DNA from: Bacteroidales bacterium
GTDB taxonomy: Bacteria; Bacteroidota; Bacteroidia; Bacteroidales; UBA932
Assembly (NCBI GenBank): GCA_017477465.1
Contig: JAFUVU010000042.1
Location: 1 to 59,304 of the forward strand
Reading direction: 5' to 3'
DNA length: 59,304 nucleotides
The translations under genes and the position numbers were made by a program. Below the pieces are notes generated by a model that saw only the letters and a program-made list of their open reading frames with translations, searched no databases and was not told the DNA's origin. Shown here in pieces: positions 2,643 through 50,049 of this stretch (its first letter is position 1; each line of letters starts with the position of its first letter).

Positions 2643-2751
2643 CCTCGACACGTAACCATCATTGCCACAGCCACTTACAGAAATCAAGTGTGACTTTTTG
2701 CCACACTTGATTTCAGGAAAATGCTGTGTAACAGGGAGTTACATGTCAAGG
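2643..2751. repeat. 109-bp palindromic element, copy 1
   Basis: Left arm starts CCTCGACACGTAAC, right arm ends GTTACATGTCAAGG. Inner stem AAATCAAGTGTG (2681-2692), loop ACTTTTTGC (2693-2701), CACACTTGATTT (2702-2713). The right arm overlaps the 3' end of the macroglobulin gene and supplies its stop codon TAA (complement of 2739-2741). Confidence 0.95.
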
Positions 2752-5700
2752 TTGGATTCCAGGGGAGGGAGGGCGGCGCTGTTGGCACGGTAGTGGGGGG
2801 CGTAGAGGGATTCGATAACAGTGACTGGAGCGGTAAAGCGGCCCGCACGTGTGACATAGAATTCCTCTGTGAGCGTAGTGTTCTCCTCCGGATAGCTGTC
2901 AAAGTAATACTCTGTAGCAGAGGCCTTTACATTGCGATAGCCCTGAGGATAGAAGCCCCAGACGTAGCCGGGCCGACGAGGAATGATAAAGCGGTAGCCG
3001 ATGTGCCCGGACAACTGTTGCACAGGGTCGAGGGAAGCCTCGCGCCCGGCAGTGAGTTTGACGAAGGAGCGATTCTCGGCGTTCCATATCTCGTATTTGA
3101 CGACAATCTTGTCGCCGACCTTGACCTTATCGCCCTCCTTGATCTCCTTCAGCACAACTTTCACGTCGTTGGGACCGGACTTGTCGTCAAAAACGCGTTC
3201 CTCGCTCACTTCGCGGAAGAACTTGCGCTCAATCTTGAAGCCGTTTCCGCTGGCCTTAATCGCCTGGAAAGGAGCTTCATAACTTGCCGACAGGGCCAGA
3301 ACGCGAGTCTGGAGCACATGCTCAGGACCGTCCAGGATGGAAGTAATAGCGTCGATATAGGCAGGCTCGGTGTCCCACTTCTGGGTCTCCTTCTGCAGCA
3401 TGAGCCAGATCCGGATTCCGTTGGAGACAGTGCGCGCCTTCTCGATGTCGGAATAGAATTCGGTGCGTCCGTCGGCAACGACGCCGGTCATAAGATCGCA
3501 AAGGAGCGAGTGGGCATACGCTTCACTTTCCATCAGACCCCGCCAAGGCATCACGGCATTGGGATAGTACCATCCGCCGTCGCGGTGCTCGACTGCATAC
3601 TCGAGAAGGGAGGCGATATCGGCCTTCATCGATTTTTCGAGCTTGCTCTTTGTGCCGAAGCTGATGCCAAGGCTCTTGGCCAGGGCCAGACCATTGTCGG
3701 TGTAAAGCAAGTGCTTGAGCGTGAGGAGCCTGCGGCCCTTTGCCAGGATCTGTCCCTGCAGGCCGCGGCCGTCCTTCTTCGAAGGAGTGAGGTAATCCTT
3801 CGCCCATTTCTTGAACTGGGAGACGCGTTTCTTGTCGGCCTGGGTGACCGGGGTCAGCTGGAAGGGGACATCGGCCCAGAGGGCACGGATATGCAGGAAC
3901 TGCTCGTCGCTTACCCAGCCGCACCAGTAAGGGAGCGTTGCACCGAACTGCGTCTTATCCAGGAACTTAACGGAAGCGGTCATGTCCGGAACGTCGAAGC
4001 CGCGGTCGCGGAGCTTGGCAAAGCGCTCAAGGAGAACGGCGGTAATTACTGCCGATGAGTTCATCCCCTCGAACCAGCCAAAGCCTCCATCCGCATTCTT
4101 GCAGGCGAGAATCTTCTCAAGCAATTCTGCGTCAGAGAGTTCGGTAGGCTCCTGCATCTGCAGCCTGGAAGCCATCTTGCGGACGTACCAGGCTTCGGAA
4201 AGCGAGAGAACGTCTTCGGCCGATGGATTCACATGCGTTGGAATGGCATCCTTGACCATATCGAGGACGGTGATTTCTTTAAGGATGGCGTCTGCGCCAG
4301 GCACGTTCACAAAGCGGGAACGCAGTTCCTTAAGCAGGGCTTCGCGGTCCATATCGGCAAGAAGAACTGCCGAATGTGCCTCCGTAAGCACTTGAGCGGC
4401 AGGATATACCGGGATGGTGACGCGGACTGCGTCGGAGAAATCGGCAGCTTTGAAACCGGCCGTGAGCACTATGTCTCCGGGGCGCTCCGCCTTTACGGTA
4501 AAGCTGCGCGAAACGGTTTTCCCTGCAGGAATGGTGACGGGAATCTGCTGTTCGCCGCTACCGGTGCTGAGGGCAAGTATTCCGGAGATTTCGTAATCGA
4601 CAATGCTGGAAGCGCTGACGGCCACTTCATACTGGTCTCCGACATACAGGAAACGAGGTTCTGCAATTGCCACTTTCACAGGCAGCGACACTACCATCTC
4701 CTTCTCTTCGACGGCGTTGCGCATGGCAGCGTCGTGCGCGAGGACGCGGACATAGTAGGTGGACAGCTTGTCGGAAGTGCGGAAGCTGAAAGTGAGCGTT
4801 CCGTCAGGCTGAGGGCGCAGGTGAGGCTGGAAGGTAAGCGACTGCGCAAATTCCTCGCGCACAGTCACTTCCTGAAGCACTCCGGCGTCTTCCTCTACCA
4901 TGACATCCTGGTCGAAGCTTTCCTCCACATCCGCCGATTCCCTCACCGCCATGGCCAACATCGGCATGGCTTCATCCATGACGGCACGGTTTTTAGCCCT
5001 GCTGCCAAGCATAGCACCTTTAACGTGTATTGCATCGTCCAGGGTATCCACATTGTCCTCCCTATTGGTAACAACGCCGCAGGCCGTATGAATGTATGGA
5101 GCATCAACGCCGATATCATGCGTATTCACCAAAGGCCAATAGTTGCGGGCGATGGCATCCACGCTCTTGTCCCAGGCGGCGGCCAGAACCTCCGCATCGG
5201 GAGCCGTCTTCACAGAGAAGCTGTATTCCACGCCGGGATAGCCCTTTTCATGGAAGCGGGTGTATTGCAGCGGAAGGGTATATTTGTCTTTTTCCTTCCT
5301 GTATTCGCGGCCGAAGTTGAAACTCTTCCCATGCTGGAAGTAGAACACCTGAAGGCGCACTGCGTCGGGATAGCTGTCCAAGTAGGGAATATTGAAATTT
5401 TCCAACGTGCTGTCGACAACTCTAATTGCCTGAGAGTAAAGCACTTCCCTATTCGCTCCAAAGAGAGTGAACAAAGCGTACGCATCGCCTGCCGATGAGC
5501 CGAGCCGTGCCGATATCGCACCTCCTTCCGCCACGGTGAGCGCACCGGGGATGAAGACGCGGGACACCTTGTCGGACAGGCTTCTTTCCCCGGGAATGGA
5601 GCAAAGAAGGCTGAGGGTTGTGTTTGCTTTCAGTTCTGCACCATCGGCCTTTTTGACCTTGGTGCCGGCTTTGAGGGTATAGAATCCATTGCCCGGAAGG

Positions 5701-7976
5701 GTAAGGGTAAACGGCTCCATGGAAGGGACTTCCCCTTCGGCAATTACCTTTTCGCCGTCCAAAAGGGTGTAGCTCACTTTGCCGGGCACCGGGCGGGAAG
5801 AATTGTCCAGGACAGAGAGGTCCAGCTTGACTTCCGGGACTGTGACGGCAAATCTGGGATCACGTTTCCAATAATAGGATTCGTTCTCCGACGTCAGATA
5901 AAGGTCTGCATTGGCCGCATTAAGGACAGAGGCACGCACGGAGATATTGTCGCCGACGAAGAAGCCGTGCGAGAATTCGTGGGTTTCGCCGCTCGCTTCA
6001 GTGACCGTGAGCTCTACGTCGTAATAGCCCGAAGATTTGGCGGGAACGTTGACGCAGAAGGTATTCCCTTCTTCCACAGGCACTTCCGTCTCCAAAACCA
6101 CATTCGAATAGCATCTTACCCTTGCCGATATGCGGGCCCCGCTGACATTATGCCCTGAGTAGCTTGTAAGGCGGCCGCGAACCGGGATGGTTTCGTTCGT
6201 CAGATAGAGTTTGTCGATAGGGTCGAAACTCAGGTCGAAGGTAGGTAGGACGAATTCATCGACCCGGAAGCTGTCAGAGCCATAGTCTTCCGCTTCCAGG
6301 GAGAAGTAACCGTTCCGCAGGCCTTTGGGCAGGAGGAAGCATCCAGATACGGAGCCGAATGAATTGGTGGTAAATTCCTTATTTTCAAGCACATTACCTT
6401 CCGAGTCCTTCAGGCGGATCTTCACCTTTTTACCCTTCAGAACTTCGAAAGAAGTGGCGGGGTTTCCTTTGAAGAAGACAGCCTTGAAGTGCATACTGTC
6501 ACCGGGGTTGTATGCGCCTCTGTCACGATAGAAATTGCATCTGTTGTACTCGTGGTTATAGACCTTGGGAAGCTCGCGTTCCAGGCTCACCGGGCGGGAC
6601 TTTCTGTTGCCGCTGGCCGCAACGATGGTATAATATGCCGATTTTGAATCCAGCACCTTCTTAAACGACTGAGGCAGAGGGGTAAAACCGTCCAGCTTAA
6701 GTGTGGTTTTAGCCACCTGCTTGTCGCCCTTGTACAGATACAGGGTTGCCGAGCGCAGCGGGACGCCGGTTTCATAGTCGGCCACGTAGGCGCAGACGCC
6801 GCGATTGTCGTGACGGGTGGCTATGGAAAGGGTGTACTGCGTGTAATAGGCTATGTCGTCGTTATCTCCGCTTTTGACTTCCACGCTGTAGCTGCCATCG
6901 GCCAGTTTTGGCATGGCAATTTTCATTGTGTCAGGCACATAGAAGCTGTTTACGGGATTGGTGAGGCGCCAGGTCTGGATGGACTTTTTGCCCTCCCGGA
7001 GCACGACGTTGGCCTTTTTCAGATTGTGCAGAAGCACGACGATCCGGTCATTTTCTATGCTTACGTTCACGTCCTCGCCCGTCAGGGTCCGGCAGAGAGA
7101 CTCGACGCCTGTGCAGCCCTCGGCTATCGTCGCTTCGTCGCCCGTGAAGCTTTTGCGCTCTGCCTCAAAGGCTTTGGCCTCGTCGTAAAGGGCTTTGTAG
7201 CTGGCCGAATCGGCCTTTTTTCTGTCGAGAAGCTGCTTGCGGATGCGGAAAACCTCCCCTCTGGGGTACATGGCAGCCGCCTTGCCGGGATATCTGTCGG
7301 CAAGCTCCTGATAGGCCTTCATCTCATCTTCGGCCATGGAATCTGGCCAATATTTCGTGCCGATTGCATAGAAATCCAAAGCCAATTCGTTGGGATATAC
7401 GCCGGCAACTTCTTCTTTCAGAAGCTGGAACAGGCCGTCGTTTTGGATTATTATGTACCGGCGGCTTCCAAGCAGAGCCCACAGCACATATTCCTTGTCA
7501 CTGCGGATGAAAGGCCTCAGCTTACCGCCAAGGTAGCCATCAACGCCGCGATGGAAAGGCCTGTTCAGGCCCTCGAAGCCGTCGGGATGCTCCTGCACAA
7601 ACTGCCATATTGCGTCGGAGGAATATCCCGCCCAGTCTTTCATCCAGCGGAAGGTCACTATCGGCTCATTATAATCTTCAATCTCTTTCTGAAGATTCTG
7701 GCGAAGTTGGTCCCTTTGCTTCCAGTCCCGCCTTTGGACGGAACTTACATATTCCGTTGCAGCGTCGTAAAAATCTACGGAAAGTCGCTTTGCTGCGGCT
7801 TCCTGTTTGATTTTGGATAGAATATCGGCTTCCTTTTGCGGTCTGTCGGCCTTGTAAGCCTCCTGGTACTGCTTCCAGAGGGTGGTTAGTTGATGTCCGT
7901 CAGTCATAGGTTGAGCTTTTAATTGCGCACCGGCCGCCAATAGCGCCAGCGCCGCGGTTATAAATATCTGTCTCAT
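2739..7976 (-). CDS. Alpha-2-macroglobulin-like exported protein (no thioester)
   Basis: A very large (about 1745 aa) protein with signal peptide (start taken at MRQIFITAALALL; an in-frame ATG four codons upstream is possible). Its middle has macroglobulin domains, including an MG2-like segment DRGAYNPGDSMHFKAVFF; the A2M domain lies around residues 1010-1080, with LTFQPHLRPQPDGTLTFSF; a helical thioester-type domain follows (DGGFGWFEGMNSSAV). The Cys-Gly-Glu-Gln thioester motif is not seen. Bacterial macroglobulins trap proteases in the envelope; thioester-less forms are known. There is no lipobox, so it is probably periplasmic. The C-terminal residues DM and the stop lie in the 109-bp palindrome. 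It is monocistronic, with another palindrome upstream. Confidence 0.85.
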   Translation of the reverse strand: MRQIFITAALALLAAGAQLKAQPMTDGHQLTTLWKQYQEAYKADRPQKEADILSKIKQEAAAKRLSVDFYDAATEYVSSVQRRDWKQRDQLRQNLQKEIEDYNEPIVTFRWMKDWAGYSSDAIWQFVQEHPDGFEGLNRPFHRGVDGYLGGKLRPFIRSDKEYVLWALLGSRRYIIIQNDGLFQLLKEEVAGVYPNELALDFYAIGTKYWPDSMAEDEMKAYQELADRYPGKAAAMYPRGEVFRIRKQLLDRKKADSASYKALYDEAKAFEAERKSFTGDEATIAEGCTGVESLCRTLTGEDVNVSIENDRIVVLLHNLKKANVVLREGKKSIQTWRLTNPVNSFYVPDTMKIAMPKLADGSYSVEVKSGDNDDIAYYTQYTLSIATRHDNRGVCAYVADYETGVPLRSATLYLYKGDKQVAKTTLKLDGFTPLPQSFKKVLDSKSAYYTIVAASGNRKSRPVSLERELPKVYNHEYNRCNFYRDRGAYNPGDSMHFKAVFFKGNPATSFEVLKGKKVKIRLKDSEGNVLENKEFTTNSFGSVSGCFLLPKGLRNGYFSLEAEDYGSDSFRVDEFVLPTFDLSFDPIDKLYLTNETIPVRGRLTSYSGHNVSGARISARVRCYSNVVLETEVPVEEGNTFCVNVPAKSSGYYDVELTVTEASGETHEFSHGFFVGDNISVRASVLNAANADLYLTSENESYYWKRDPRFAVTVPEVKLDLSVLDNSSRPVPGKVSYTLLDGEKVIAEGEVPSMEPFTLTLPGNGFYTLKAGTKVKKADGAELKANTTLSLLCSIPGERSLSDKVSRVFIPGALTVAEGGAISARLGSSAGDAYALFTLFGANREVLYSQAIRVVDSTLENFNIPYLDSYPDAVRLQVFYFQHGKSFNFGREYRKEKDKYTLPLQYTRFHEKGYPGVEYSFSVKTAPDAEVLAAAWDKSVDAIARNYWPLVNTHDIGVDAPYIHTACGVVTNREDNVDTLDDAIHVKGAMLGSRAKNRAVMDEAMPMLAMAVRESADVEESFDQDVMVEEDAGVLQEVTVREEFAQSLTFQPHLRPQPDGTLTFSFRTSDKLSTYYVRVLAHDAAMRNAVEEKEMVVSLPVKVAIAEPRFLYVGDQYEVAVSASSIVDYEISGILALSTGSGEQQIPVTIPAGKTVSRSFTVKAERPGDIVLTAGFKAADFSDAVRVTIPVYPAAQVLTEAHSAVLLADMDREALLKELRSRFVNVPGADAILKEITVLDMVKDAIPTHVNPSAEDVLSLSEAWYVRKMASRLQMQEPTELSDAELLEKILACKNADGGFGWFEGMNSSAVITAVLLERFAKLRDRGFDVPDMTASVKFLDKTQFGATLPYWCGWVSDEQFLHIRALWADVPFQLTPVTQADKKRVSQFKKWAKDYLTPSKKDGRGLQGQILAKGRRLLTLKHLLYTDNGLALAKSLGISFGTKSKLEKSMKADIASLLEYAVEHRDGGWYYPNAVMPWRGLMESEAYAHSLLCDLMTGVVADGRTEFYSDIEKARTVSNGIRIWLMLQKETQKWDTEPAYIDAITSILDGPEHVLQTRVLALSASYEAPFQAIKASGNGFKIERKFFREVSEERVFDDKSGPNDVKVVLKEIKEGDKVKVGDKIVVKYEIWNAENRSFVKLTAGREASLDPVQQLSGHIGYRFIIPRRPGYVWGFYPQGYRNVKASATEYYFDSYPEENTTLTEEFYVTRAGRFTAPVTVIESLYAPHYRANSAALPPLESNLDM

Positions 7977-8023
7977 TTCAAGAAACATTTTTTGCTGAAT
8001 TCTTCAACAATCGTGCCCTTTCC

Positions 8024-8133
8024 ACCGTGGCACGCAAACGCCTGATTCCCAGCCGCTTCCTGAAATCAAGTGTGTCTTTTTGCCACACTTGATTTTAGCA
8101 AGTTGTTGAGTATTAGGGACATGCGTGTCTAGG
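8024..8133. repeat. 109-bp palindromic element, copy 2
   Basis: Inner stem AAATCAAGTGTG (8063-8074), loop TCTTTTTGC (8075-8083), CACACTTGATTT (8084-8095). Right arm ends CATGCGTGTCTAGG at 8133, one base from the folC stop (8135-8137). The left outer arm is the most degenerate of the family (GGCACGCAAACG). Confidence 0.9.
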
Positions 8134-8134
8134 G

Positions 8135-9532
8135 TTAGCGGAAGAGGGGGAGGGATTCGGCTACTACGAAGGCGCTGCCGCCGATGTAGATGAGGGGCGG
8201 GGCGGGCTGTTCGGCCGATGCGCTGCGGCTTAGCTGTTCCGACAGGTTCTGGGCCAGCTGGACGGCCATCTGGACGGCCTGGCGGACGCTGGGTGCGAGG
8301 AAGGCACGCTCCGGACCTGGAATGGAAGCGGCGCGGCGATAGATAAGGTAACGGCGAAGCAGCTCCCCTGCCGGAAGGGCGCGCGGCGTGTCGGGGGCGG
8401 TGAAAATGTAGGTGGCATCGGCAGGCATCAGGGGCAGGATGGCGTCCAGGTCCTTGTCGGCCATTATGCCGTACACTATGATGAGCGAGGAGAAGGTGCC
8501 GCTTGCGATGCGGTCCTTCAGCTGGGCGAAATTGTAGCCGAGGGCCTGCGCATTGTGGCCGATGTCCGCCAGCACGTATGGCTGGGCCGACACTCGCTCC
8601 CATCTGCCGCGGAAGCCCATGCGCCGGGCGGTATGGATAATGCCTTCGAGGAGCTTGTCGTCCTGAGAAAGCGCCTGATATGCAGGAATTTGCTTAAGTA
8701 TATCGACGGCCGTCAGCACTGTGCGAAGGTTATGCTCCTGCACCGCCGCCTGAAGGTCCATCTGCTTAAGGATGCTCAAGTGCCGATACCAGAGCGAGGG
8801 CTTCACCCTGTCGGCATAGGTCAAGGGGCAGAACATCCAGGAGCGCTCGTTGAAAACCGGGTCCGTTTCGGGATTGCTTTCGCCGACAAGGGCAGGCACG
8901 CCGGCTTTGAAAATGCCGGCTTTCTCCGCAGCGATCTGAGGCAGAGTATCCCCAAGCAAAGCCATGTGGTCCAGGCCGATGGTGGTGATTATCGAAAGGT
9001 CCGGAACTATGATATTGGTAGAATCCAGACGTCCGCCAAGGCCGGTCTCGATGACGGCGACATCTACATTTTCATCGGCGAAATATTTCAGTGCCAGGCC
9101 GGTAGTAATCTCGAAGAAGGAAAGCTGATGCTCCGTTATCCAGGGCATCCATTCGGTGAGGAAGGAGAAAACGTAGTCCTTCGGCACCAGGAAGGAGGGT
9201 TCTTCCTCCTGCGCTTCCTTGCCCGGGGCAATGCGAACCCTTTCGCGGAAATCCACCAGGTGCGGCGACGTGAAAAGGCCGGTCTTAAGCCCGCAGGCAC
9301 TAAGGGCCGATGCAAGCATATTGGCCACCGATCCCTTGCCGTTTGTGCCGGCTATGTGGATGCTGTGAATCTGCCGCGAAGGGCTGCCCAGGGCCTCGTC
9401 AAAAGCTTGCATCCTTTCCAGACCGGGTTTGTATGCGCCCGGAGTGAAGCCATCCTTCTGAACTGACGGAAACCGTCTGAAAATATCCTGCACCAGGGCC
9501 TCGTAGCCCGCTTCTGTAAAACTTGCATCCAT
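8135..9532 (-). CDS. folC: Folylpolyglutamate synthase / dihydrofolate synthase
   Basis: A 465-aa cytoplasmic ATP-dependent ligase of the Mur ligase family that adds glutamate to dihydropteroate and folates. It shows the P-loop IAGTNGKGSV (about residue 62), the substrate loop FTSPHLVDFRERV, VIETGLGGRLDSTN, and ITTIGLDHMALLG with EKAGIFK. Length is slightly above the usual 420-440. ATG 9532 (MDASFTEAGY) is preferred over a TTG at 9550 because a -7 box, TATCTTTG, lies at 9547-9540 and would overlap the longer start. The gene is probably monocistronic, divergent from the PurL-like gene with back-to-back promoters in under 100 bp. A palindromic element touches its stop codon. Confidence 0.93.
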   Translation of the reverse strand: MDASFTEAGYEALVQDIFRRFPSVQKDGFTPGAYKPGLERMQAFDEALGSPSRQIHSIHIAGTNGKGSVANMLASALSACGLKTGLFTSPHLVDFRERVRIAPGKEAQEEEPSFLVPKDYVFSFLTEWMPWITEHQLSFFEITTGLALKYFADENVDVAVIETGLGGRLDSTNIIVPDLSIITTIGLDHMALLGDTLPQIAAEKAGIFKAGVPALVGESNPETDPVFNERSWMFCPLTYADRVKPSLWYRHLSILKQMDLQAAVQEHNLRTVLTAVDILKQIPAYQALSQDDKLLEGIIHTARRMGFRGRWERVSAQPYVLADIGHNAQALGYNFAQLKDRIASGTFSSLIIVYGIMADKDLDAILPLMPADATYIFTAPDTPRALPAGELLRRYLIYRRAASIPGPERAFLAPSVRQAVQMAVQLAQNLSEQLSRSASAEQPAPPLIYIGGSAFVVAESLPLFR

Positions 9533-9539
9533 ACAAATA

Positions 9540-9547
9540 CAAAGATA
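9540..9547 (-). promoter_or_regulatory. -7 box for folC
   Basis: TATCTTTG on the minus strand, ending 7 bases before ATG 9532, which implies a very short 5' leader. No clear TTTG at -33. Confidence 0.65.
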
Positions 9548-9574
9548 CAAAATATTTCCCGTCCGTGCTGCTTG

Positions 9575-18786: not shown

Positions 18787-18895
18787 CCTTGACACACAAC
18801 CAACTGACAATCAGCCATTTCCTGAAATCAAGTGTGTCTTTTTGCCACACTTGATTTTCACAAGTCGCTGAGGGACAGCGGGTTGCGTGTCGAGG
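18787..18895. repeat. 109-bp palindromic element, copy 3
   Basis: Starts CCTTGACACACAAC and ends GTTGCGTGTCGAGG. Inner stem 18825-18836 / 18846-18857, loop TCTTTTTGC. Its right end is 3 bases from the stop codon of the GH53 gene. Confidence 0.95.
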
Positions 18896-20129: not shown

Positions 20130-20238
20130 CCTCGACACGCAAGTACCTGACTATCAGCAAAATGCTGAAATCAAGTGTGGCAAAAAGTCACACTTGATTT
20201 CAGGAAAGGGTTATGTTTCAGGCGTTTACGTGCCTAGG
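20130..20238. repeat. 109-bp palindromic element, copy 4 (reverse loop)
   Basis: Starts CCTCGACACGCAAG and ends GTTTACGTGCCTAGG. Inner stem 20168-20179 / 20189-20200, loop GCAAAAAGT, so the element is flipped relative to copies 1-3. It lies between the GH13 and GH53 genes, one base from the GH13 stop codon. Confidence 0.95.
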
Positions 20239-33694: not shown

Positions 33695-33803
33695 CCTCGA
33701 CACGCAACCCTCTGTCCCTGAGCCATTTATGAAAATCAAGTGTGACTTTTTGCCACACTTGATTTCAGGAACTTGTTGATTGTTAGGGAGTTGCGTGTCA
33801 AGG
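33695..33803. repeat. 109-bp palindromic element, copy 5
   Basis: Starts CCTCGACACGCAAC and ends GTTGCGTGTCAAGG. Inner stem 33733-33744 / 33754-33765, loop ACTTTTTGC. It fills exactly the gap between two convergent stop codons, ending at 33694 and starting at 33804. Confidence 0.97.
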
Positions 33804-34778: not shown

Positions 34779-34780
34779 AA

Positions 34781-34889
34781 GCTTGACACGTAAATATCTG
34801 ACACAGAAGCAAATGCTGAAATCAAGTGCGGCAAAAAGTCACACTTGATTTCTGTAAAGTGTTATGGGTGAGAGGGTTGTGTGTCGAGG
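34781..34889. repeat. 109-bp palindromic element, copy 6 (reverse loop)
   Basis: Starts GCTTGACACGTAAA and ends GTTGTGTGTCGAGG. Inner stem AAATCAAGTGCG 34819-34830 with CACACTTGATTT 34840-34851, loop GCAAAAAGT. Its right 28 bases code for the last residues (LDTQPSHP) and the stop of the U32 gene. Confidence 0.95.
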
Positions 34890-36175: not shown

Positions 36176-36183
36176 AATCGGCA

Positions 36184-36191: not shown

Positions 36192-36206
36192 GCGATTTTT
36201 TATGGT

Positions 36207-36238: not shown

Positions 36239-36244
36239 CGGGTT

Positions 36245-38032: not shown

Positions 38033-38033
38033 G

Positions 38034-38942: not shown

Positions 38943-38984
38943 TCCGGTCTTGGCACGGGTTGTGCAATATGCATCCATCGGCCG

Positions 38985-39500: not shown

Positions 39501-39506
39501 GCAGTT

Positions 39507-40401: not shown

Positions 40402-40420
40402 ACGCCTCTGATTCAAAAAG

Positions 40421-40450
40421 AAATGGCCCCCTTCAAGGGCCATTTTTTTA
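40421..40450. terminator. Bidirectional terminator
   Basis: AAATGGCCC (40421-40429) pairs with GGGCCATTT (40437-40445), T run to 40449; AAAAAG on the left serves the opposite strand. The flanking genes are convergent, and the lolD stop lies within it. Confidence 0.88.
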
Positions 40451-41104: not shown

Positions 41105-41112
41105 CTTTTTAT

Positions 41113-41143
41113 TTTGCTTTGGAATGGGAAATCACTACCTTTG
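41113..41143 (+). promoter_or_regulatory. Promoter for the phospholipase D/TonB receptor operon
   Basis: TTTG at 41113-41116, 19 nt, TACCTTTG at 41136-41143, giving a leader of about 120 nt before ATG 41272. Confidence 0.75.
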
Positions 41144-41218
41144 TCCGTGTATTGAAAAACCTATTCCTCCACAAAGATAAAAACATTCCCAAAATGTCGC
41201 AAATACTAAGTAATCGTG

Positions 41219-41299
41219 AAAAAACAAGCCGCCTCAACGCTCCAGTCGCTGCGCGACCCTATTCCGGGCAAATGTCGCTTATGAGGCGGCTTGTTTTTT
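41219..41299 (+). promoter_or_regulatory. Terminator-like hairpin over the start of the PLD gene (putative attenuator)
   Basis: AAAAAACAAGCCGCCTCA (41219-41236) is perfectly complementary to TGAGGCGGCTTGTTTTTT (41282-41299): 18 bp ending in six T. The 45-nt loop contains the inner hairpin GTCGC-TGC-GCGAC and the start codon at 41272. With the promoter at 41136 this resembles a leader with a conditional terminator, or a structure that hides the start. Confidence 0.65.
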
Positions 41300-42471
41300 C
41301 TGCATTGCCAAGCATTCTGCTGCTCATCTTCAGTTATTTACCCCTGCAGGCCCAATATGGCCCGCTGGCAGACAGCATATCCACGTCCACCGGTTTCGTA
41401 CCCGTAGGCGGCAACAGCATGAAGCTGACAAAAAACGGCGAGGAGTTCATGCGCTGGCTATTAGAGGATATCCACAACGCCACCCAAAGCGTTGAAATAG
41501 AGTACTATTGGTTCGATAACGACAAGGCCGGCCAGATGCTTCGCACGGCTCTGATGGAGAAAGCCCGTCAGGGAGTTGCCGTAAGGGTAATCATGGACAA
41601 TCTGATCGACCCCACAGCTCCGGAGGAGTATTACGACGTTCTCCGCAGGACAGGGGCCGATGTCCGCTATTTCAGAGACTTCAAAAAAATCCGTCTCTGG
41701 AAGCTTCCAGCCACTGTTCTGGGACAGAGGAATCACAAGAAAATAGTTGTCATCGACAATAAGATTGCCTACACTGGCGGCATGAATTTCTGCGATGCAG
41801 CAGCGTTCAACTGGGAAGACACACAGATGCGCATTGTCGGCCCAGCTGCCAATGAGATGCGAAAACTCTTCCTCAAGACTTGGACAGCCCTTGGCGGGGA
41901 AGCTCCCGAAATGGCCGCCGCGGCGCCGGAAGGCAACGTTGTGGCACAGGTCATTTATTCGGATGCATCGCCCATGCTTGAGAATATTTATGTGCAGACT
42001 ATCAGGCAGGCCAAGCGCTATTTTTACATCCAGACGCCTTATATGGTACCGCCGCAAGCACTTCTGGATGAGCTTGTTGCAGCAAAGCGGCGCGGTGTCG
42101 ATGTGCGCATTATCATCCCTACCAGCAGCGACTGGCCCTTCATGAACGAAATCACGCGCGACTACTTCCCTCTTTTCATGCAGGAAGGCATCCGCATATA
42201 CGAATACGGCACTATTTACGACCACAGCAAAGTCTTCGTATCCGACGATATACTAAGCAGTTGCGGCACAGTGAACCTGGACAACCGCAGCTTCCATATA
42301 AACTGCGAAAACGCCCTCCTGTTCCACGACAGTGAAACTGCGGTGTATTTCCGCGGGCTGCTTGAAGGCCTCATGGGCAAAGCCCACGAGATTCAGCCAG
42401 GAGAGGGCGACGCGAAAGGCCTTCGCAGAGTCTGGCGTAGCTTCATAAAACTCTTCTCTCCCCTGCTTTGA
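41272..42471 (+). CDS. Exported phospholipase D / cardiolipin synthase-like protein
   Basis: About 399 aa from ATG 41272 (MSLMRRLVFSALPSILLLIF, signal peptide or anchor; ATG 41281 is also possible, and an open reading extends to 41119). Two HKD motifs: NHKKIVVIDNKIAYTGGMN (about residue 160) and YDHSKVFVSDDILSSCGTVN (about 325), with EYYWFDND near the N-terminus, as in bacterial cardiolipin synthases and PLDs. The predicted cleavable signal (LPLQAQYG) would place it in the periplasm, which is unusual for a cardiolipin synthase. It is the first gene of an operon with a TonB receptor (TTGA overlap) and a DUF4249 lipoprotein. Confidence 0.85.
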   Translation: MSLMRRLVFSALPSILLLIFSYLPLQAQYGPLADSISTSTGFVPVGGNSMKLTKNGEEFMRWLLEDIHNATQSVEIEYYWFDNDKAGQMLRTALMEKARQGVAVRVIMDNLIDPTAPEEYYDVLRRTGADVRYFRDFKKIRLWKLPATVLGQRNHKKIVVIDNKIAYTGGMNFCDAAAFNWEDTQMRIVGPAANEMRKLFLKTWTALGGEAPEMAAAAPEGNVVAQVIYSDASPMLENIYVQTIRQAKRYFYIQTPYMVPPQALLDELVAAKRRGVDVRIIIPTSSDWPFMNEITRDYFPLFMQEGIRIYEYGTIYDHSKVFVSDDILSSCGTVNLDNRSFHINCENALLFHDSETAVYFRGLLEGLMGKAHEIQPGEGDAKGLRRVWRSFIKLFSPLL

Positions 42472-44465
42472 CACGCGTATCGGCATACTTGTTGGCCCTT
42501 CTCACTTTCTGCTTGCCCCTTCAGGCTCAGGAGGTCGACAGTCTGCACGCGAAATTGGACAGCACCGTCTTTGCCGTTGAAAAACCCTCTTCCGGGCTCA
42601 GTTTCGGCGTTTCCCAGGCCACTACCGCCACTATCCAGCAGATAAAGAAAGTGCCGATGCTGATGGGCAATGCCGACCCGCTCCGCTTCGTCCGCCTGCT
42701 TCCGGGGGTAACTTCCGGCATGGACCTGGACTCCGGCCTGCACATCCAGGGGACGGAAAACGCCCACTGCCTGGTGGCGGTGGAGGGAGTGCCGGTGTAT
42801 GGCGCCTCGCACCTTCTGGGCGTGTTTTCTTCCTTCATTTCCAGCCACTTCAAGGAGATGGAGTTCACGCCCTTCAGCGCAAAGGCCAACCGTCTTGGCG
42901 GAACGGTGAACATGCGCCTGCCCTCGGAGGTTCCTTCAAGGTTTCGCGGGCAGATTACCGCGGGTCTTTTCGAAAGCGAGGGAACCCTTGATATCCCCCT
43001 TGGGAAGCGTTCGGGGCTGTTTTTATCGGCACGGAAGTCTTATATCAATCTGCTGTACTCACCGTTTCTGCGGATGGACCAGTACAGCTTCCGATACGGC
43101 ATGGGGGACGGCAACCTCACCTGGTACTGGACGCCCCGCCGGCAGGATCAAATTTGGGCCGATGTAAGCCTGGGGGCCGATGCGGTGACCTTTTTAAGCA
43201 GCATCAGCGGTATCAATTTCTCGTTCGACTGGTGGAACCGGACGGCGGCGCTGCATTGGCTGCATACCTGGGACGGCGGGCCCAAGCTCAAGCAGACTCT
43301 CTATCACAGCGGACTTGCCCTGAACATCGATTTCAAGCACGATTTCTTCAACTTTATCGTCCCTTCAAGCATTGCCACCACAGGGTACAAAGCCTCCCTG
43401 GAGAGCGGCCGATGGCGTTTTGAGGCGCACGCAGCTTACCATCAGGCCATGCCGCAGAAGATGAGTATCGGCAATATTGCATTCGACCTGCAGCAGGAAG
43501 GAGAGCATCAGCAGGGCGTTGAACTAACAGCCGAGGCGCATTACACATGGCCTGTCAATCAGATACTTACGCTTGAGGGTGCGCTGAAGGGTGTCTGGTG
43601 GCTGTCGCCTGACGGGGCTTCATATCCCGCTCTGCTGCCCGAGGCGCGGGCGCTGCTGAATCTCGGATGGGCCGGTAAGCTTGATGCAGTGGCGGGACTG
43701 GCCCGGCAGCATCTTTTCCAGACGGGAGTGTCTTCGATGGGCATGCCCACCGAGTTCTGGTACCTTGCCGGGAAGGACCTGCCGCCGCAGGGATCGGCCT
43801 ATACCGCCCTCACTTGGGGGAGGAATTTCTTCCGGGAGCAATATGCGGTGCAGATAAGCGCTTATTATCGGCATTTGACAAACCAGATTGACTACAACGG
43901 CAACATGCTGGATTATTTGCAGGCCGATTATGCCACGCCCCGCTACCTTAGCTGGGGCAGCGGCAGCAATTACGGGCTGGGCATCATTCTGCAAAGGCAG
44001 TACGGGGCGCTTACAGGCTGGATTTCATATACCCTGTCGCGGTCTTTGCGCAATTTCGAGGGAGGGAGTTTCCCGGCCTCGCACGAACGCATCCACGAAT
44101 TCAATGCCGTGGCCAATTACAGCCTTGGGGCGTGGGACTTCGGGGCTTCGATGGTGCTGGCTTCCGGCACGCCTTTTACCGCTGCCGAGGCTTTCTATGT
44201 CCTTGGCGGAACGCTGATTACCAGTTACTCCGAGCGTAATGCCAGCCGGGCCAAGCCTTATTTCAGATTGGATATCCAGGCAAGTTACTACTTCCACCGC
44301 GGGGAACGGGAGAATGGAATTAGCTTTTCCATGTTCAACGCTGCAGGGTACAAGAACGACATTTATCGGCAACTTACTGTCACTGAGGACGGGAAGTTCG
44401 CTTACAAGCCTTTCGGCCTGCATCTTCGCTTTTTGCCGGCCTTGTCTTACTTCCATCACTTTTAG
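42468..44465 (+). CDS. TonB-dependent receptor-like outer-membrane protein
   Basis: A 665-aa protein with a signal peptide (YLLALLTFCLPLQAQ), a plug domain (VPMLMGNADPLRFVRLLPGVTSGMD, HIQGTENAHCLVAVEGVPVYGASHLLG, KANRLGGTVNMRLPSE) and a beta-barrel to the end. The carboxypeptidase-like N-terminal domain common in SusC proteins is missing. It begins at TTG (42468-42470), overlapping the stop TGA of the PLD gene; no ATG gives a signal peptide, so TTG is the probable start. The partner downstream is a DUF4249 lipoprotein, a pairing common in Bacteroidetes in place of SusD. Substrate unknown. Confidence 0.88.
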   Translation: MTRVSAYLLALLTFCLPLQAQEVDSLHAKLDSTVFAVEKPSSGLSFGVSQATTATIQQIKKVPMLMGNADPLRFVRLLPGVTSGMDLDSGLHIQGTENAHCLVAVEGVPVYGASHLLGVFSSFISSHFKEMEFTPFSAKANRLGGTVNMRLPSEVPSRFRGQITAGLFESEGTLDIPLGKRSGLFLSARKSYINLLYSPFLRMDQYSFRYGMGDGNLTWYWTPRRQDQIWADVSLGADAVTFLSSISGINFSFDWWNRTAALHWLHTWDGGPKLKQTLYHSGLALNIDFKHDFFNFIVPSSIATTGYKASLESGRWRFEAHAAYHQAMPQKMSIGNIAFDLQQEGEHQQGVELTAEAHYTWPVNQILTLEGALKGVWWLSPDGASYPALLPEARALLNLGWAGKLDAVAGLARQHLFQTGVSSMGMPTEFWYLAGKDLPPQGSAYTALTWGRNFFREQYAVQISAYYRHLTNQIDYNGNMLDYLQADYATPRYLSWGSGSNYGLGIILQRQYGALTGWISYTLSRSLRNFEGGSFPASHERIHEFNAVANYSLGAWDFGASMVLASGTPFTAAEAFYVLGGTLITSYSERNASRAKPYFRLDIQASYYFHRGERENGISFSMFNAAGYKNDIYRQLTVTEDGKFAYKPFGLHLRFLPALSYFHHF

Positions 44466-44468
44466 CGC

Positions 44469-45275
44469 ATGAAACGTCTGATTCCCATACTTTTACTGCT
44501 TGTGAGCGCCTGCACGCCCACCCTTGTGAGCATGCCCGACAAGGAGCGCCTGGTGGTAGAAGGCTGGATCGACAGCGGCGACAATCCCGTCGTCATGGTC
44601 ACTACGCCCGTTAAGGCCGAGGATTATGAACGATCGGCCAAAAGCCTGGCGCAGCATATTGTCACCCGGGCCCGCGTAACGGTGCAGGAGGATGACGGAG
44701 AGGAGGTTCTGCTGGAAGGCAGGGTGGACGAAAATTACCTTCCGCCTTATATCTATACCACCGACATGATTATCGGCCGGCCTGGGCACAAATATACGCT
44801 GAAGGTTCAGTATGGGAACCATTCGGCCCAAGGCGAAACGACTGTGCCTGAGCCGGTTCCGCTTAAAAGCGTAGAGGTTTCGCACTCGGCCTACGCTAAC
44901 GACCTTTATCTTGTGATGGCCCATCTTGACCGCACCGACGTGCGCTACCGTTTCTTCACCAAGGTCGAGGGGAAGGACACTCAGTTCTACCCTTGCATTC
45001 TCAGCGGCACATCGGGGCTCTCGGCTGTGCCGATTATGCGGGGATGGAGTCTTATCGGCGAAAAGCAGCCCGAATTCCTTGCCGGCGAAGTGGTTCATCT
45101 TAAGGCATGTACGCTGGATGAGGCCGCCTGGCAGTTCTGGCAAGGCTTCGACGCGGTGGCTACCCTCGGGCTCATTCCCTTCTTCCCCGTCCACGACAAC
45201 GCCCCCTCCAACCTCAAAGGCGCCTACGGCTATTGGGCCGGCTACGGCGTCACCTTCTATACTGTGGAGATGTAA
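44469..45275 (+). CDS. DUF4249 family surface lipoprotein
   Basis: A 268-aa lipoprotein (lipobox LLLLVSAC) with an N-terminal beta-rich domain (KERLVVEGWIDSGDNPVVMVTT) and the ordered strands typical of DUF4249 proteins. These are encoded next to TonB-dependent receptors and may act as extracellular lids or ligand binders. It begins 3 bases after the receptor gene. It ends 29 bases before palindrome copy 7, which it shares with the convergent xylose transporter gene. Confidence 0.82.
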   Translation: MKRLIPILLLLVSACTPTLVSMPDKERLVVEGWIDSGDNPVVMVTTPVKAEDYERSAKSLAQHIVTRARVTVQEDDGEEVLLEGRVDENYLPPYIYTTDMIIGRPGHKYTLKVQYGNHSAQGETTVPEPVPLKSVEVSHSAYANDLYLVMAHLDRTDVRYRFFTKVEGKDTQFYPCILSGTSGLSAVPIMRGWSLIGEKQPEFLAGEVVHLKACTLDEAAWQFWQGFDAVATLGLIPFFPVHDNAPSNLKGAYGYWAGYGVTFYTVEM

Positions 45276-45304
45276 GCGCTGCGACGTGGCCGTTGCCGGT
45301 GCCA

Positions 45305-45413
45305 CCTCGACACACAACCCACTGACACTGAGCCAACTATGAAAATCAAGTGTGACTTTTTGCCACACTTGATTTCAGGAAAGTATTGATTATCACGCTG
45401 TTGCGTGTCGAGG
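45305..45413. repeat. 109-bp palindromic element, copy 7
   Basis: Starts CCTCGACACACAAC and ends GTTGCGTGTCGAGG. Inner stem 45343-45354 / 45364-45375, loop ACTTTTTGC. Its right end touches the xylE stop codon (45414-45416). Confidence 0.97.
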
Positions 45414-46856
45414 TTACTTTTGGGTGCGCCAGAAGGTTGTCATGTCTTCCAGGGTTTTGCCTTTGGTTTCTGGCACCAGGCGCCAGACGAAGATTGCCGC
45501 CACAAGGCAGATGACACCGTACAGTGCATAGGCGAAGAAATGGCCGAAGCTGTCGCCCATCGAGCCCAGACGCATATTGTACATCGGCACAAAAGTGCTG
45601 GAAACGATGAAGTTGAATATCCACTGGAACGCCACGGCGATGGCGGTTGCCTGACTGCGGATGGTGTTGGGGAAAAGCTCCGAGATGTACACCCAGCAGA
45701 TAGGGCCCCAGCTGAACATGAAGCAGGCGCTGTAAAGCATGATGCTCACCACCGGCACGAAGGCGGGCAGGGTGACAATATTGCTAAGCGCAACTCCAAG
45801 AGCGCCGATTGCCATGCCCAGGGAACCCGTGATGAGGAGGGGCTTTCGGCCCAGTTTGTCCACGGTAAAAACGGCCACCAGGGTGAAGGAAATGTTGATT
45901 ACACCCATGATCACCGTAAAGAGCATATTGTTGGACACACCCATGGATTCAAAGATGCGCGGTGCAAAATACAGCACTGCATTTATGCCGATGATCTGCT
46001 GGAACACGCTGAGCATGCAGCCGATGAATACCACCATCCAGCCGTAGGAGAATAGATGCTCGCGCTTGGTATCGACGGTGGCTTTGATTTCCTCGAGGAT
46101 GATTCGGGCGTTGTGCTCGCCGTTGATGTTGGACAGTACCTTCATCGCATCGTCGTCGCGGCCCTTAAGCGTCAGATATCGAGGCGTTTCGGGGACCAGC
46201 AGTATAAGCAGGGCGAAGAGCCCGGCAGGCACGGCCTCGGAGACGAACATCAGGCGCCAGCCTACCTCGTTGGTCCATTCCACCACGTCGGGATCGGCAG
46301 CGTGGCTACGCACGATGAGGAAGTTCACAAAGTACACCACCAGCTGGCCGAAGATAATGGCAAACTGGTTCCATGACACCAGGGAGCCGCGCTTCTTGTA
46401 GGGGGCAATCTCGGCAATGTACATAGGGCACAGGGCCGATGCCAATCCTACGCCGATACCGCCAAGCACACGGTAGCAGTTGAAAGCCACCAGGAGGCTC
46501 ATGCTGGCCTCGCCTTCCTCGAAGAAGAGGAATTCGGGGTAGTACGAGCCGAGGGCGCTGAGGAAGAAGAGAATGCCGGCAATGAAGAGGGATTTCTTTC
46601 TTCCGAGCCTGGAAGCCATGATGCCGGAGAGGAAAGCGCCGATAACACAGCCGATCAGGGCGCTGGAGGTAGTGAAGCCATGCAGGGCGTCGGTGTAAAC
46701 GAAATCATCGGCATCCTGGAAAAAGGCCTGCAGACCCTTCTCCGCGCCGGATATGACAGCTGTGTCATACCCAAACAGCAGTCCGCCCAGCACTGCTACC
46801 AGGACGATGCCGAGCAGGTAGGCGAGGCTGCCGCTTTGTCTGTAACTACTTTGCAT
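45414..46856 (-). CDS. xylE: MFS sugar:H+ symporter, xylose type
   Basis: A 480-aa inner-membrane transporter of the sugar porter family with 12 helices. Motifs: [40 protein letters not shown], the loop-6 [26 protein letters not shown] and the late PETKGKTLE. The Gln and Asn residues in QQIIGIN match sugar-binding residues of XylE. It overlaps the 3' end of xylA by 11 bases, in the operon xylB-xylA-xylE, which supports xylose as substrate. Confidence 0.92.
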
Positions 46857-48162
46857 AGAGGTTCAGGAGGGTTTCGTAAAGTTCCTGCTTGCCGGAAGCC
46901 GAGACGGGCTCGCCGTTAGCCTTGGCGTAATTGTAAAGCTCTTCCAGAGTGGCCTTGCCCTCTTCGAACTTCTTGCCGAGGCCTTCGTCGAAGCTGGCGT
47001 AGCGCTCCCCTACCATCTTGCAGATGGGGCTTTCTTCGAGGACTGCAGCGGCATTGAGAAGGGCGTGGGCCATTGCATCCATGGCGCTGATATGGGCGAT
47101 GAAGATGTCGTCGGGGTCGGTGGAGGAGCGGCGGAGCTTGGCGTCGAAGTTGGTGCCGCCATTGCCGAAGCCTCCGTTCAGGATCACCTGCATCATGGCC
47201 TGGGTGAGGTCGTAAGGATCCACGGGGAACTGGTCTGTATCCCAGCCGTTCTGTGCGTCGCCGCGGTTGGCGTCGATGGAGCCGAGGAAGCCGTTCTCGC
47301 GGGCTACCGTGAGCTCGTGCTCGAATGTGTGGCCGGCCAGGGTGGCGTGGTTGACTTCGATATTCACCTTGAAGTCCTTTTCAAGGCCGTTTGCACGCAG
47401 GAAGCCGATAACCGTCTCGGTGTCAACGTCGTACTGATGCTTGGTGGGTTCCATGGGCTTGGGCTCGATGAGGAAGGTGCCTTTGAATCCGTTTGCACGG
47501 GCGTAGTCGCGGGCTGCCTTGAGCATCTGGGCAAGGTGGTCTTTCTCACGCTGCATCTGGGTATTGAGAAGGGTGTAATAGCCTTCACGGCCGCCCCAGA
47601 ACACGTAATTGGTGCCGCCGAGTTTGATGGTGGCGTCGATGGCGTTCTTGATCTGGACAGCTGCGCGGGCCACGATGTCAAACTGAGGGTTGGTGGCAGC
47701 GCCGTTCATGTAACGCTTATTGCCGAAAACATTGGCAGTGCCCCAGAGGTTCTTGATACCGGTCTCCTTCATCTTTTCGAGGAGGTAGTCGGTGATGTCT
47801 TTCAGGCGGGCTTCATACTCGGCGATGTCTTCGCAGTCTTCGATAAGATCCACATCGTGGAAGCAGAAGTACTCGATTCCAAGCTTTTGCATGATTTCGA
47901 AGCCTGCATCGGCCTTGGCGCGGGCACGGCAGTAGGGGCATTCGCCTTTGTCCCATTCGTAGCTGCGGGTCTGTCCGCCGAAGGGATCGGCCGAAGCCTG
48001 GCCCAGGGTATGCCACCAGGCCATTGCAAATTTGAGCCACTCCTTCATGGGTTTGCCCATGACTATGCGCTCTGCATCGTAATAGTGGAAAGCAAAGACG
48101 TTCTTGCTTTCAGGCCCTTCAAAGGGGATTTTGCCGATTGTCGGGAAATATTCTTTTGCCAT
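46846..48162 (-). CDS. xylA: Xylose isomerase
   Basis: A 438-aa cytoplasmic enzyme converting D-xylose to D-xylulose. Motifs: catalytic His in [23 protein letters not shown], metal ligands in [18 protein letters not shown] and [21 protein letters not shown], and [15 protein letters not shown] near the N-terminus. Length is that of class II xylose isomerases (about 438), the type typical of Bacteroidetes. It lies between xylB (45 bases upstream) and xylE (overlapping). Confidence 0.98.
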
Positions 48163-48182
48163 AATGTATTGATGTTAAATTA

Positions 48183-48219
48183 TTTTCTTTCAGATTCTTC
48201 GCTTCGCTCAGAATGACAG
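48183..48219 (-). repeat. TGTCATTCTGAGCGAAGC repeat at the end of xylB
   Basis: On the minus strand CTGTCATTCTGAGCGAAGCG, then AAGAATCTG, the same family as the 24-bp units at 2302 and those at 53190-53346. It encodes the last xylB residues (Leu-Ser-Phe) and its TGA. Confidence 0.8.
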
Positions 48220-49674
48220 GTGGGACTTCCACCGCTCGTAGGCTTCGCGGTACTGGTCCTGGTGGTCCGGGAGGATGACGTCCAGACGCTCCAGGGTGGC
48301 AAAGGCTTCGCGGTTGTCCCTATAGATGCCGGCTCCTATGCCTGCACCTTTGGCTGCTCCTGCGCTGCCTTCCGTATCGTACAGTTCGATGGTGGCACCG
48401 GTAACGCCTGCAAGAGTGTCCCTGAACACTTTGGACTGGAACATATTGGCCCGTCCGGCGTGGATTTTATCCACTTTCAGGCCCATCTTTTCCATAACCT
48501 CAATGCCGAAGCGGAAGCCGAAAACGATGCCTTCCTGGGCCGCGCGGAACAGCTGCGGCCTGTCGTGCCTGTTGAAGTCCAGCCCGTAAATGCTGCAGCC
48601 GACGTTCTTGTTGCCCAGCAGACGCTCCGCTCCGTTGCCGAAGGGCAGGATGCTGATGCCATCGGCCCCGATTGGGACATTTTCGGCAAGTTCGTTCATT
48701 TCCTGATATGTTGCGCCTTCCAGGGCTACGTGGCGACGCATCCATGAATTCATGATGCCGGTGCCGTTTATGCAGAGCAGCACGCCGAGGCGGGGATTAT
48801 CGACCGTATAGTTCACGTGGGCGAAGGTGTTCACGCGGGAGGCGGGGTCGTAATTTATCTTGTCCGTTACGCCATAGACGACGCCGGAGGTGCCTGCCGT
48901 GGATGCTATATCGCCGGGGTTGAACACATTCAGGCTCAGCGCATTGTTTGGCTGATCGCCTGCCCTGTAAGTTACGGGGATGCCTTCCTTAAGGCCCAAT
49001 TCCTCGGCCGCTTTGCGCGAGACGGTGCCTTGAATGCCGAAGGTGGACTTGATGTCCGGGATAAGGGTGTCGCTAAATCCGAAATGCTCCAGCAGAGGGG
49101 CCGAAATCCGGCCGGCCTTGAAGTCCCAGAATATGCCTTCGGACAGGCCGCCGGCCGTTGTGCAGACGGTATCGGTGAGGCGCATGGCTATGTAGTCGCC
49201 CGGAAGCATTATCTTCCAGATGCGCTTGTACAGTTCCGGCTCATTTTCTTTCACCCAGGCCAATTTGGCGGCGGTAAAGTTACCGGGAGAATTCAGCAGA
49301 TGTTCCAGACACCATTGCGGGTCCAGGCTCTTGAAGGCCTCCTCGCCGTAAGGGACGGCGCGGGAATCGCACCATATAATGGACGGGCGCAGGACATTGC
49401 GGTCCCTGTCGATGCAAACCAGACCATGCATCTGGTAAGAAATGCCGATGGCGGCGATATCACGGGCATCGACCTTTGTGAGAAGACGCTCGGTGACTAT
49501 TTTCAGGTTGCCCCACCACATTGAGGGGTCCTGCTCGGCCCAGCCTGGTTTTTTTGATATTATTATGGCCTCGTGCGAAGGATAAGATGCAAAGGCGACG
49601 GTCTTCCCGCTCTGCGCATCTACTATTGAGCCCTTGACAGAAGAGCTGCCGATATCGTAGCCTAAAAGGTACAT
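48208..49674 (-). CDS. xylB: Xylulokinase
   Basis: A 488-aa cytoplasmic FGGY-family kinase phosphorylating D-xylulose to xylulose 5-phosphate. ATP/phosphate motif LLGYDIGSSSVKGSIVDAQ at the N-terminus, GISYQMHGLVCIDRD, catalytic Asp region VTYRAGDQPNNALS and the C-terminal KIHAGRANMFQS, ASTAGTSGV. First gene of the xylose operon; its promoter (TACCTTTA) lies upstream of ATG 49674. The C-terminal residues LSF and the stop come from an intergenic repeat (48183-48219), so the native C-terminus may have been altered. No xylose-responsive regulator is adjacent. Confidence 0.95.
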   Translation of the reverse strand: MYLLGYDIGSSSVKGSIVDAQSGKTVAFASYPSHEAIIISKKPGWAEQDPSMWWGNLKIVTERLLTKVDARDIAAIGISYQMHGLVCIDRDRNVLRPSIIWCDSRAVPYGEEAFKSLDPQWCLEHLLNSPGNFTAAKLAWVKENEPELYKRIWKIMLPGDYIAMRLTDTVCTTAGGLSEGIFWDFKAGRISAPLLEHFGFSDTLIPDIKSTFGIQGTVSRKAAEELGLKEGIPVTYRAGDQPNNALSLNVFNPGDIASTAGTSGVVYGVTDKINYDPASRVNTFAHVNYTVDNPRLGVLLCINGTGIMNSWMRRHVALEGATYQEMNELAENVPIGADGISILPFGNGAERLLGNKNVGCSIYGLDFNRHDRPQLFRAAQEGIVFGFRFGIEVMEKMGLKVDKIHAGRANMFQSKVFRDTLAGVTGATIELYDTEGSAGAAKGAGIGAGIYRDNREAFATLERLDVILPDHQDQYREAYERWKSHLSF

Positions 49675-49700
49675 AGGTTTATCGTTTTAGCAATCGTCCG

Positions 49701-49732
49701 TAAAGGTACATAATTTCTGCCGAACTTTCAAA
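49701..49732 (-). promoter_or_regulatory. Promoter for the xylose operon
   Basis: On the minus strand TTTG (49732-49729), 20 nt, TACCTTTA (49708-49701), 26 nt before the xylB ATG. The last base of the -7 box deviates from consensus. Confidence 0.6.
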
Positions 49733-49746
49733 ACGCCGCCGCTTTT

Positions 49747-49778
49747 TTTGTCAATTTGTAAAAAACAACGTACCTTTG
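49747..49778 (+). promoter_or_regulatory. Promoter for tRNA-Pro
   Basis: TTTG at 49747-49750, 20 nt, TACCTTTG at 49771-49778; the tRNA starts 9 nt later. Confidence 0.8.
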
Positions 49779-49787
49779 CAATCCCAT

Positions 49788-49861
49788 CGGGGTGTGGCGC
49801 AGTTGGCTAGCGCATCTGGTTTGGGACCAGAGGGTCGTGTGTTCGAGTCACATCACCCCGA
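49788..49861 (+). tRNA. tRNA-Pro (UGG anticodon)
   Basis: A 74-nt cloverleaf. Acceptor CGGGGTG (49788-49794) pairs with CACCCCG (49854-49860), discriminator A at 49861. Anticodon stem TCTGG/CCAGA around TTTGGGA gives TGG; T-loop TTCGAGT. Confidence 0.95.
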
Positions 49862-49864
49862 CGT

Positions 49865-49890
49865 AAAGACGGCTTTTTGCCGTCTTTTTT
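49865..49890 (+). terminator. Terminator of tRNA-Pro
   Basis: AAAGACGGC, loop TTTTT, GCCGTCTTT followed by further T to 49890. Confidence 0.9.
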
Positions 49891-49940
49891 GTTGTGAAAG
49901 CGTTGTAGCGGGAAACAGCCTTGCTTATGCCACGATATAG

Positions 49941-50049
49941 CCTTGACACGCAAGTGACTGACTCTCAGCGAGTTCCTGAAATCAAGTGTGTCTTTTTGCC
50001 GCACTTGATTTCAGCAAGTGATTGTGACACAGAGAGTTGCGTGTCGAGG
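49941..50049. repeat. 109-bp palindromic element, copy 8
   Basis: Starts CCTTGACACGCAAG and ends GTTGCGTGTCGAGG. Inner stem 49979-49990 / 50000-50011, loop TCTTTTTGC. It lies between the tRNA-Pro terminator and the rimM stop, 72 bases from the latter, the only copy not next to a stop codon. Confidence 0.95.

Follow-up and report, generated by a model that had tools for sequence, protein, structure and literature searches.

The window (the whole 59,304-nt stretch of DNA analysed here, which lies on contig C3 of the source genome, G000) encodes Sus-type proteins, a SusG-like amylase and BACON and TonB-receptor domains, indicating a Bacteroidales host. Eight palindromic elements are scattered along it at spacings of 1 to 14 kb (Table 1). 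The initial annotation had read these as REPIN-like, that is, as inverted pairs of REP units mobilised by a RAYT-type transposase. All eight copies were present, although the second starts at 8025 and not at 8024, and each has the described design of a 50-nt arm, a 9-nt loop and a 50-nt inverted arm. Both loop orientations occur, the reversed form in the copies at 20130 and 34781. Folding energies of the eight elements were 5.4 to 8.5 standard deviations below those of shuffled sequences and none of the 200 shuffles equalled them (the second copy was entered in this test as 8024-8132, one base off). A known RNA family had been considered as another identity; the elements matched none in Rfam (4227 models, gathering score), and two tRNAs were the sole matches in the window.

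Table 1. Palindromic elements and associated genes. Elements 1 to 8 are given in window positions, other features by contig of G000.
Feature	Position	Strand	Description
Element 1	2643..2751	+	109-bp palindrome; arm gives stop codon of minus-strand gene 2739-7988 (A2M-like)
Element 2	8025..8133	+	109-bp palindrome; 1 bp from stop of minus-strand gene 8135-9550 (Mur ligase domains)
Element 3	18787..18895	+	109-bp palindrome; 3 bp from stop of minus-strand gene 18899-20083 (GH53)
Element 4	20130..20238	-	109-bp palindrome, loop reversed; 1 bp from stop of minus-strand gene 20240-22504 (SusG-like amylase)
Element 5	33695..33803	+	109-bp palindrome; occupies entire gap between convergent stop codons 33694 / 33804
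Element 6	34781..34889	-	109-bp palindrome, loop reversed; contains stop of minus-strand gene 34862-36184 (peptidase U32)
Element 7	45305..45413	+	109-bp palindrome; touches stop of minus-strand gene 45414-46856 (sugar transporter); convergent plus-strand stop 29 bp away
Element 8	49941..50049	+	109-bp palindrome; TAG immediately left, TTA right; no adjoining gene end by simple caller
C9 RAYT (clade A)	G000:C9:11438-12376	-	Y1/HUH gene between two family elements
Family element	C9:11350-11458		contains stop codon of C9 RAYT
Family element	C9:13109-13217		732 bp upstream of C9 RAYT, beyond one ORF
ORF	G000:C9:12493-13134		213 aa; between upstream element and C9 RAYT
C17 RAYT (clade A)	G000:C17:67257-68276		between two elements of own core type
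C8 RAYT (clade A)	G000:C8:25925-26965		between two elements of own core type
In-gene element	G000:C15:43384-43492		L065; L234:2309-2417; read in frame within MatE gene

Other repeats were also seen in the window. A 34-bp repeat stands three times in tandem at 58691-58792, with 91-97% likeness to its first unit, and repeats spaced by 24 bp with TGTCATTTC motifs lie at 2302-2383, shortly before a tRNA gene. At 53253-53345 a 40-bp repeat occurs twice; it contains inverted parts resembling CGGCCCTTCG/CGAAGGGCCG and may be a further small palindromic repeat.

The family was counted in the whole draft genome (2.42 Mb, 73 contigs, 82.5% complete) using a 31-base core pattern with at most 3 mismatches. 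This gave 73 copies, and the backward control gave 0. The covariance model R1 produced 146 matches that fell on the same 73 places, all covering model positions 1-109. Element length in G000 is nearly fixed at 109 bp. The exact length claimed for the window copies held for all eight of them but for only 60 of the 73 genomic copies, the rest being 110 bp (nine), 111 bp (two), 115 bp (one) and 108 bp (one). A 13-base half-core with one mismatch gave 141 matches, compared to the 146 half-cores held by the 73 elements, and no half-arm singlets (REP remnants) were seen among the 100 matches listed of the 141, all of which lay inside elements by eye. The core is private to G000 among 400 genomes of the genus: at up to 3 mismatches it was found in one, G000 itself. 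The core pattern had no match in the GTDB contigs, a set in which the genome itself is possibly absent.

Pairing and conservation were computed on the 60 copies that are exactly 109 bp long. The inner stem (arm positions 38-50) was 97% paired and deserves the description of nearly perfect that had been given to both stems, whereas the outer 14 pairs, at 80% with G-T allowed, fall short of it. The middle was partly paired, as described, at 58%. Mean pairwise identity was 98% for the core, 77% for the outer arm and 56% for the middle, so conservation is highest at the centre and not at the end. The most alike pair shared 97 of 109 positions, and the absence of near-identical recent copies among the 60 counts against the RAYT reading. 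Compensatory change in the middle (arm positions 15-37), for which the initial annotation had proposed to look, was not seen within G000. Arms of the same copy were 58.1% paired there as compared to 63.5% for arms swapped between copies (z -5.2; 0 of 2000 swaps as low), which is the opposite of compensatory change inside G000. This lower same-copy pairing appeared in the true register only. A set of 116 elements taken from 17 other genomes, biased in that it was picked mostly by model score and of mixed lengths, did not reproduce it, the pooled values running in the opposite direction (61.2% vs 58.1%).

No RAYT gene is listed on contig C3, in agreement with the earlier statement that the window has none. 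A RAYT gene flanked by the same arms was found on contig C9, where the Y1/HUH gene lies between two family elements, one of them holding its stop codon and the other lying upstream beyond one ORF (Table 1). This ORF had no family match above cut-off. A homologous ORF of about 210 aa (48-56% identical) was present at 6 of the 34 clade A loci searched; apart from C9, the loci with the ORF are L099, L105 and L230-L233. The layout of element, ~210-aa ORF, RAYT and element was complete in L099, L105, L230 (CADAIT010000004.1) and L232 (CACYHF010000021.1), the last two being public records. At L233 only the upstream element was present, and at L231, where the contig begins, there was no element. L230-L233 were outside the training set of model R2 (see below), and the four named records with a close RAYT (55-57% identical) are metagenome-assembled genomes of uncultured Bacteroidia/Bacteroidales. 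The ~210-aa ORF may be a gene that partners the RAYT in this branch.

In the structure predicted for the C9 protein (pLDDT 91), a Y1 domain at the N terminus is followed by a long, helical C-terminal part. A Foldseek search with this model returned 4ER8, a RAYT in complex with a REP hairpin, as the top match (E 2.7e-5, TM 0.67 on target), followed by the IS608 and ISDra2 TnpA proteins of the IS200/IS605 group. H58, H60 and Y118 were invariant in 23 aligned proteins. The C9 protein has a predicted HUH/tyrosine Y1 transposase fold of the RAYT type, with HxH and Tyr. Two results were counted against the RAYT reading: REP_Tyr_transpos was the only NCBIfam match and scored 32.8 against a cut-off of 80 bits, and the WQ pair was absent from the RAYT in the alignment by eye. 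A search of G000 with PF01797 listed the C17 gene alone and not the C9 gene, which likewise counts against that reading; a profile made from 22 clade A proteins recovered the C9 and C8 genes.

Across the genus, Y1_Tnp matches were found in 46 of 61 genomes. Forty loci were fetched, and the 37 proteins that were long enough formed a tree with two clades, A (23 proteins) and B (14 proteins). Clade A proteins are about 310 aa with [DN]HxH and Y..NN motifs, no WQ and a helical C-terminal part. A palindrome detector found elements beside 7 of the 23 clade A genes vs 0 of the 14 clade B genes in the tree; one further match, at L111, was tRNA-like by eye and was discarded. By eye, at least 11 of the clade A genes had a single core type on both flanks, from adjacent to ~750 bp off. 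G000 holds three clade A genes (C9, C17 and C8). C17 and C8 carry cores other than that of the 73-copy family, the C17 core (at most 3 mismatches) occurs in one place only in G000, and in G019 and G024 the core flanking the RAYT differs from the sampled dispersed cores; these findings count against the RAYT reading. The clade B Y1_Tnp genes (e.g. L094, L103, L106) are more canonically RAYT-like with an MSNHVHFV-type motif, and the detector showed no flanking palindromes at them.

Elements of the same design were looked for in related genomes. Model R1 at E <= 1 matched 14 of 24 genomes of the same genus and 2 of 16 of the same order (E 0.4 and 0.66). At E <= 0.01, elements were found in 13 of the 16 genomes that have a clade A RAYT, as against 1 of the 9 that lack one (Fisher p 0.002 whether or not the own genome is counted). 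The exceptions to this pairing, which count against the RAYT reading, were G011, with an element and no clade A RAYT, and G004, G010 and G017, with a RAYT and no element. A second model, R2, was built from 37 hand-picked elements of 9 genomes. It was run on 12 further genomes, which had been picked for carrying the in-gene element described below, and gave between 66 and 150 matches in every one, counting both strands. One R2 match in G005 (L236:1126-1354) was 229 nt, about twice the usual length; it is perhaps two copies joined together or one element that has taken up an insertion. Across the alignment of the 37 elements, 85.8% of cells in the outer and core stems were paired vs 57.2% when shuffled and 31.8-40.8% when slid, and both-side changes were present at 26 of 27 stem pairs. 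This is strong evidence of compensatory change in the outer and core stems between species. The middle showed a small gain (61.1 vs 57.2 shuffled). The CTGA..TCAG arm hairpin showed no covariation beyond shuffles and was kept as sequence; being constant without covarying, it behaves as a protein contact would.

The REPIN reading of the initial annotation is supported by the 73 copies, by the C9 RAYT lying between two of them and by 4ER8 as top fold match. We conclude with high confidence that this is a REPIN-like family of 73 copies, with inverted ~50-nt arms and a 9-nt loop, that would be mobilised as single-stranded DNA by its cognate RAYT-type HUH/tyrosine transposase (the C9 gene).

One copy in G000 is read in frame within a MatE gene, whose Pfam match scores 72.4 bits against a cut-off of 24.9 (Table 1). 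The MatE gene was recovered from 30 of 31 genomes searched and was scanned with R2 at E <= 1. An element lay in the same linker of 14 of the 30 genes including our own (13 of 29 relatives, L235-L247), the weakest match being in G412 (E 1.3e-4), and the other 16 loci had no match at that threshold. In-gene cores differ between species. They were compared with the cores of dispersed copies sampled from each of the 14 genomes, 1 to 72 per genome and excluding the in-gene copies, and the own genome was strictly the best match in 9 of 14 and tied in 2 (G005, and G412 at only 7/12), while it was not the best in G054, G377 and G405. None of 20000 permutations reached the own-genome total, in a test that ignores kinship between species. 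The MatE site suggests, as its plainest reading, a shared insertion with its core rewritten in place. More broadly, we tentatively propose per-species concerted evolution, somewhat short of an even chance, in which the core preference of the RAYT shifts and elements are rewritten in place, arm by arm, including an in-gene copy shared by descent in about a dozen species. If true, a single chromosomal position would hold, like a serial number, whichever transposon sequence is current in the species.

For the MatE site only, the 14 species may instead have gained elements independently in one tolerant linker, and we give this something approaching an even chance. The linker is clearly tolerant; G412 has the element and its sister G044 does not, and the spacing to the conserved helix differs by several residues. 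This sits against the finding that 13 of the 14 element-bearing genes form one clade, although support for that clade is only 70. Thirteen of the 14 matches begin in one shared codon phase (the 110-nt match in G255 is one base off), which argues for one inherited insertion, but a membrane-protein linker permits few stop-free phases. G054 and G240 each have one element with arms of two core types, as half-replaced copies would have, which counts against independent gain.

Gene context in G000 was assessed with a simple caller that relies on codon usage, trained on 16 ORFs of the window, and not with a proper gene finder; 67 of the 73 elements had both neighbours and 6 lacked one. Elements were concentrated at gene ends. 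Of 100 neighbouring stops, 48 were 0 to 5 bp from the element edge and 76 within -30..+10, compared to 2 and 11 of 40 neighbouring starts. A stop codon lay within -30..+10 bp of the edge at 58 of the 73 elements, some gene stops sit inside element arms, and one copy of the 73 was called inside a gene. The 67 neighbour pairs were convergent (33), co-directional (30) or divergent (4), and both stops were within -30..+10 in 18 of the 33 convergent pairs. On either flank, A made up 53-63% of the bases at -1 and -2, and no target duplication was seen by eye or in the flank table. Much like the stops inside the arms here, GTAG repeats supply TAG stops (PMC3733652). Empty sites were looked for at the polyprenyl synthetase gene, which has a window element on each side and was present in 383 of 400 genus genomes; among the 29 relatives fetched no gap downstream of it was seen that could be aligned to our own, and L203 and L204 had a long hairpin there. 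That no empty site was seen among these counts against the RAYT reading.

Such a placement, with convergent neighbours far outnumbering divergent ones, would also be expected of non-mobile functional 3'-end structures (bidirectional terminators or stabilisers of mRNA 3' ends) homogenised by selection, with RAYT genes merely carrying them too. The core in several related species does resemble a GC-rich stem with A and T tracts, but the G000 core is AT-rich, and a terminator scan flagged none of the four elements in 33000-50600. Start-side and in-gene copies also exist, and a purely 3'-end role leaves unexplained the RAYT between two copies, the nearly fixed length and the conserved arm motif. 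We consider this account unlikely, while a terminator role and mobility of the elements are compatible. A DDE-transposase MITE, or a site like the attC of integrons, would likewise be palindromic and many-copied with inverted terminal stems, but is very improbable as the flanks show the A preference only and, by eye and in the flank table, no target duplication, the genes found bounded by elements are RAYT genes (at loci chosen as Y1/RAYT genes), the window copies at 1 to 14 kb apart are not cassette arrays, and the arms presumably do not fit the attC core motif.

For the preferred reading, a REPIN-like family with a cognate RAYT, we infer transposition of the elements along the following lines. 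The RAYT would bind the constant CTGA..TCAG part together with the species-specific stems and would cut and rejoin one strand, and elements would be copied to new sites without target duplication. Insertion may be tolerated where an element arm supplies a stop (TAA or TGA) or where the element sits in the gap after one. The differing core types between genomes fit a transposase and an element population that co-evolve. In this genus of at least 400 species, many of which have RAYT-linked elements of their own and a shared in-gene site, transposase-target co-evolution could be read; it would also bear on the in-place conversion of old copies and on settling at stop codons. Should transcription in some species also end at the elements, mobile DNA would be supplying whole gene borders.

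The family was compared with known systems. IS608 and ISDra2 have hairpin ends. Their IS200/IS605 TnpA proteins share the HUH/tyrosine fold with the C9 protein; those are autonomous insertion sequences with a short transposase, whereas here the protein is longer and the non-autonomous population is large. GTAG/CGTC-tagged REPs, in the text of Di Nocera et al. 2013 (PMC3733652), likewise lie near or overlap genes and their GTAG termini often give the stop codon, but they are described there as 20-40 bp with a tetranucleotide tag, and the CGTC repeats as having no transposase partner. REPIN/RAYT systems fit in anatomy and partner gene as presented in PMC8049555 and PMC3116915. The account of Bertels and Rainey 2011 (PMC3116915) has the same inverted arm doublet, single-strand hairpin and many extragenic copies, with a RAYT beside family members and a family of its own for each RAYT. 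Compared with the REPINs of that account, the arm here is ~50 nt, the central hairpin and not the outer end is best conserved, length is nearly fixed at 109 and the stop-codon position is extreme. The GTAG/GTGG foot of canonical REPs is absent from the family arms, as judged by arm frequencies; this was counted against the RAYT reading, and we therefore class the family as REPIN-like and not as canonical REPINs. The REPIN literature, to judge from these two sources, deals mostly with Proteobacteria with GTAG-tagged REPs (PMC3116915, PMC8049555). The nearest printed note on such elements that we found is the passage on Bacteroidetes TnpA-REP subclass 2.6 in Quentin et al. 2018 (PMC6006769), in which the genes stand beside atypical structures that lack GT[AG]G and have copies elsewhere in the genome. 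Our family agrees in its Bacteroidetes host, in lacking GT[AG]G and in having copies of the flanking structures elsewhere. Subclass 2.6 is given NH[LIV]H, WQ and YIH[QN]NP motifs, and clade A instead has, by eye, [DN]HxH, no WQ and Y..NN. The passages on this subclass do not describe element architecture, length or evolution (PMC6006769), and the passages of the literature that we found hold no recognisable description of 109-bp elements of this design or of in-place core change. With the same design in other sequence in related species, the family looks like a non-canonical, little-described branch, in Bacteroidales, of the known REPIN/RAYT miniature mobile DNA.
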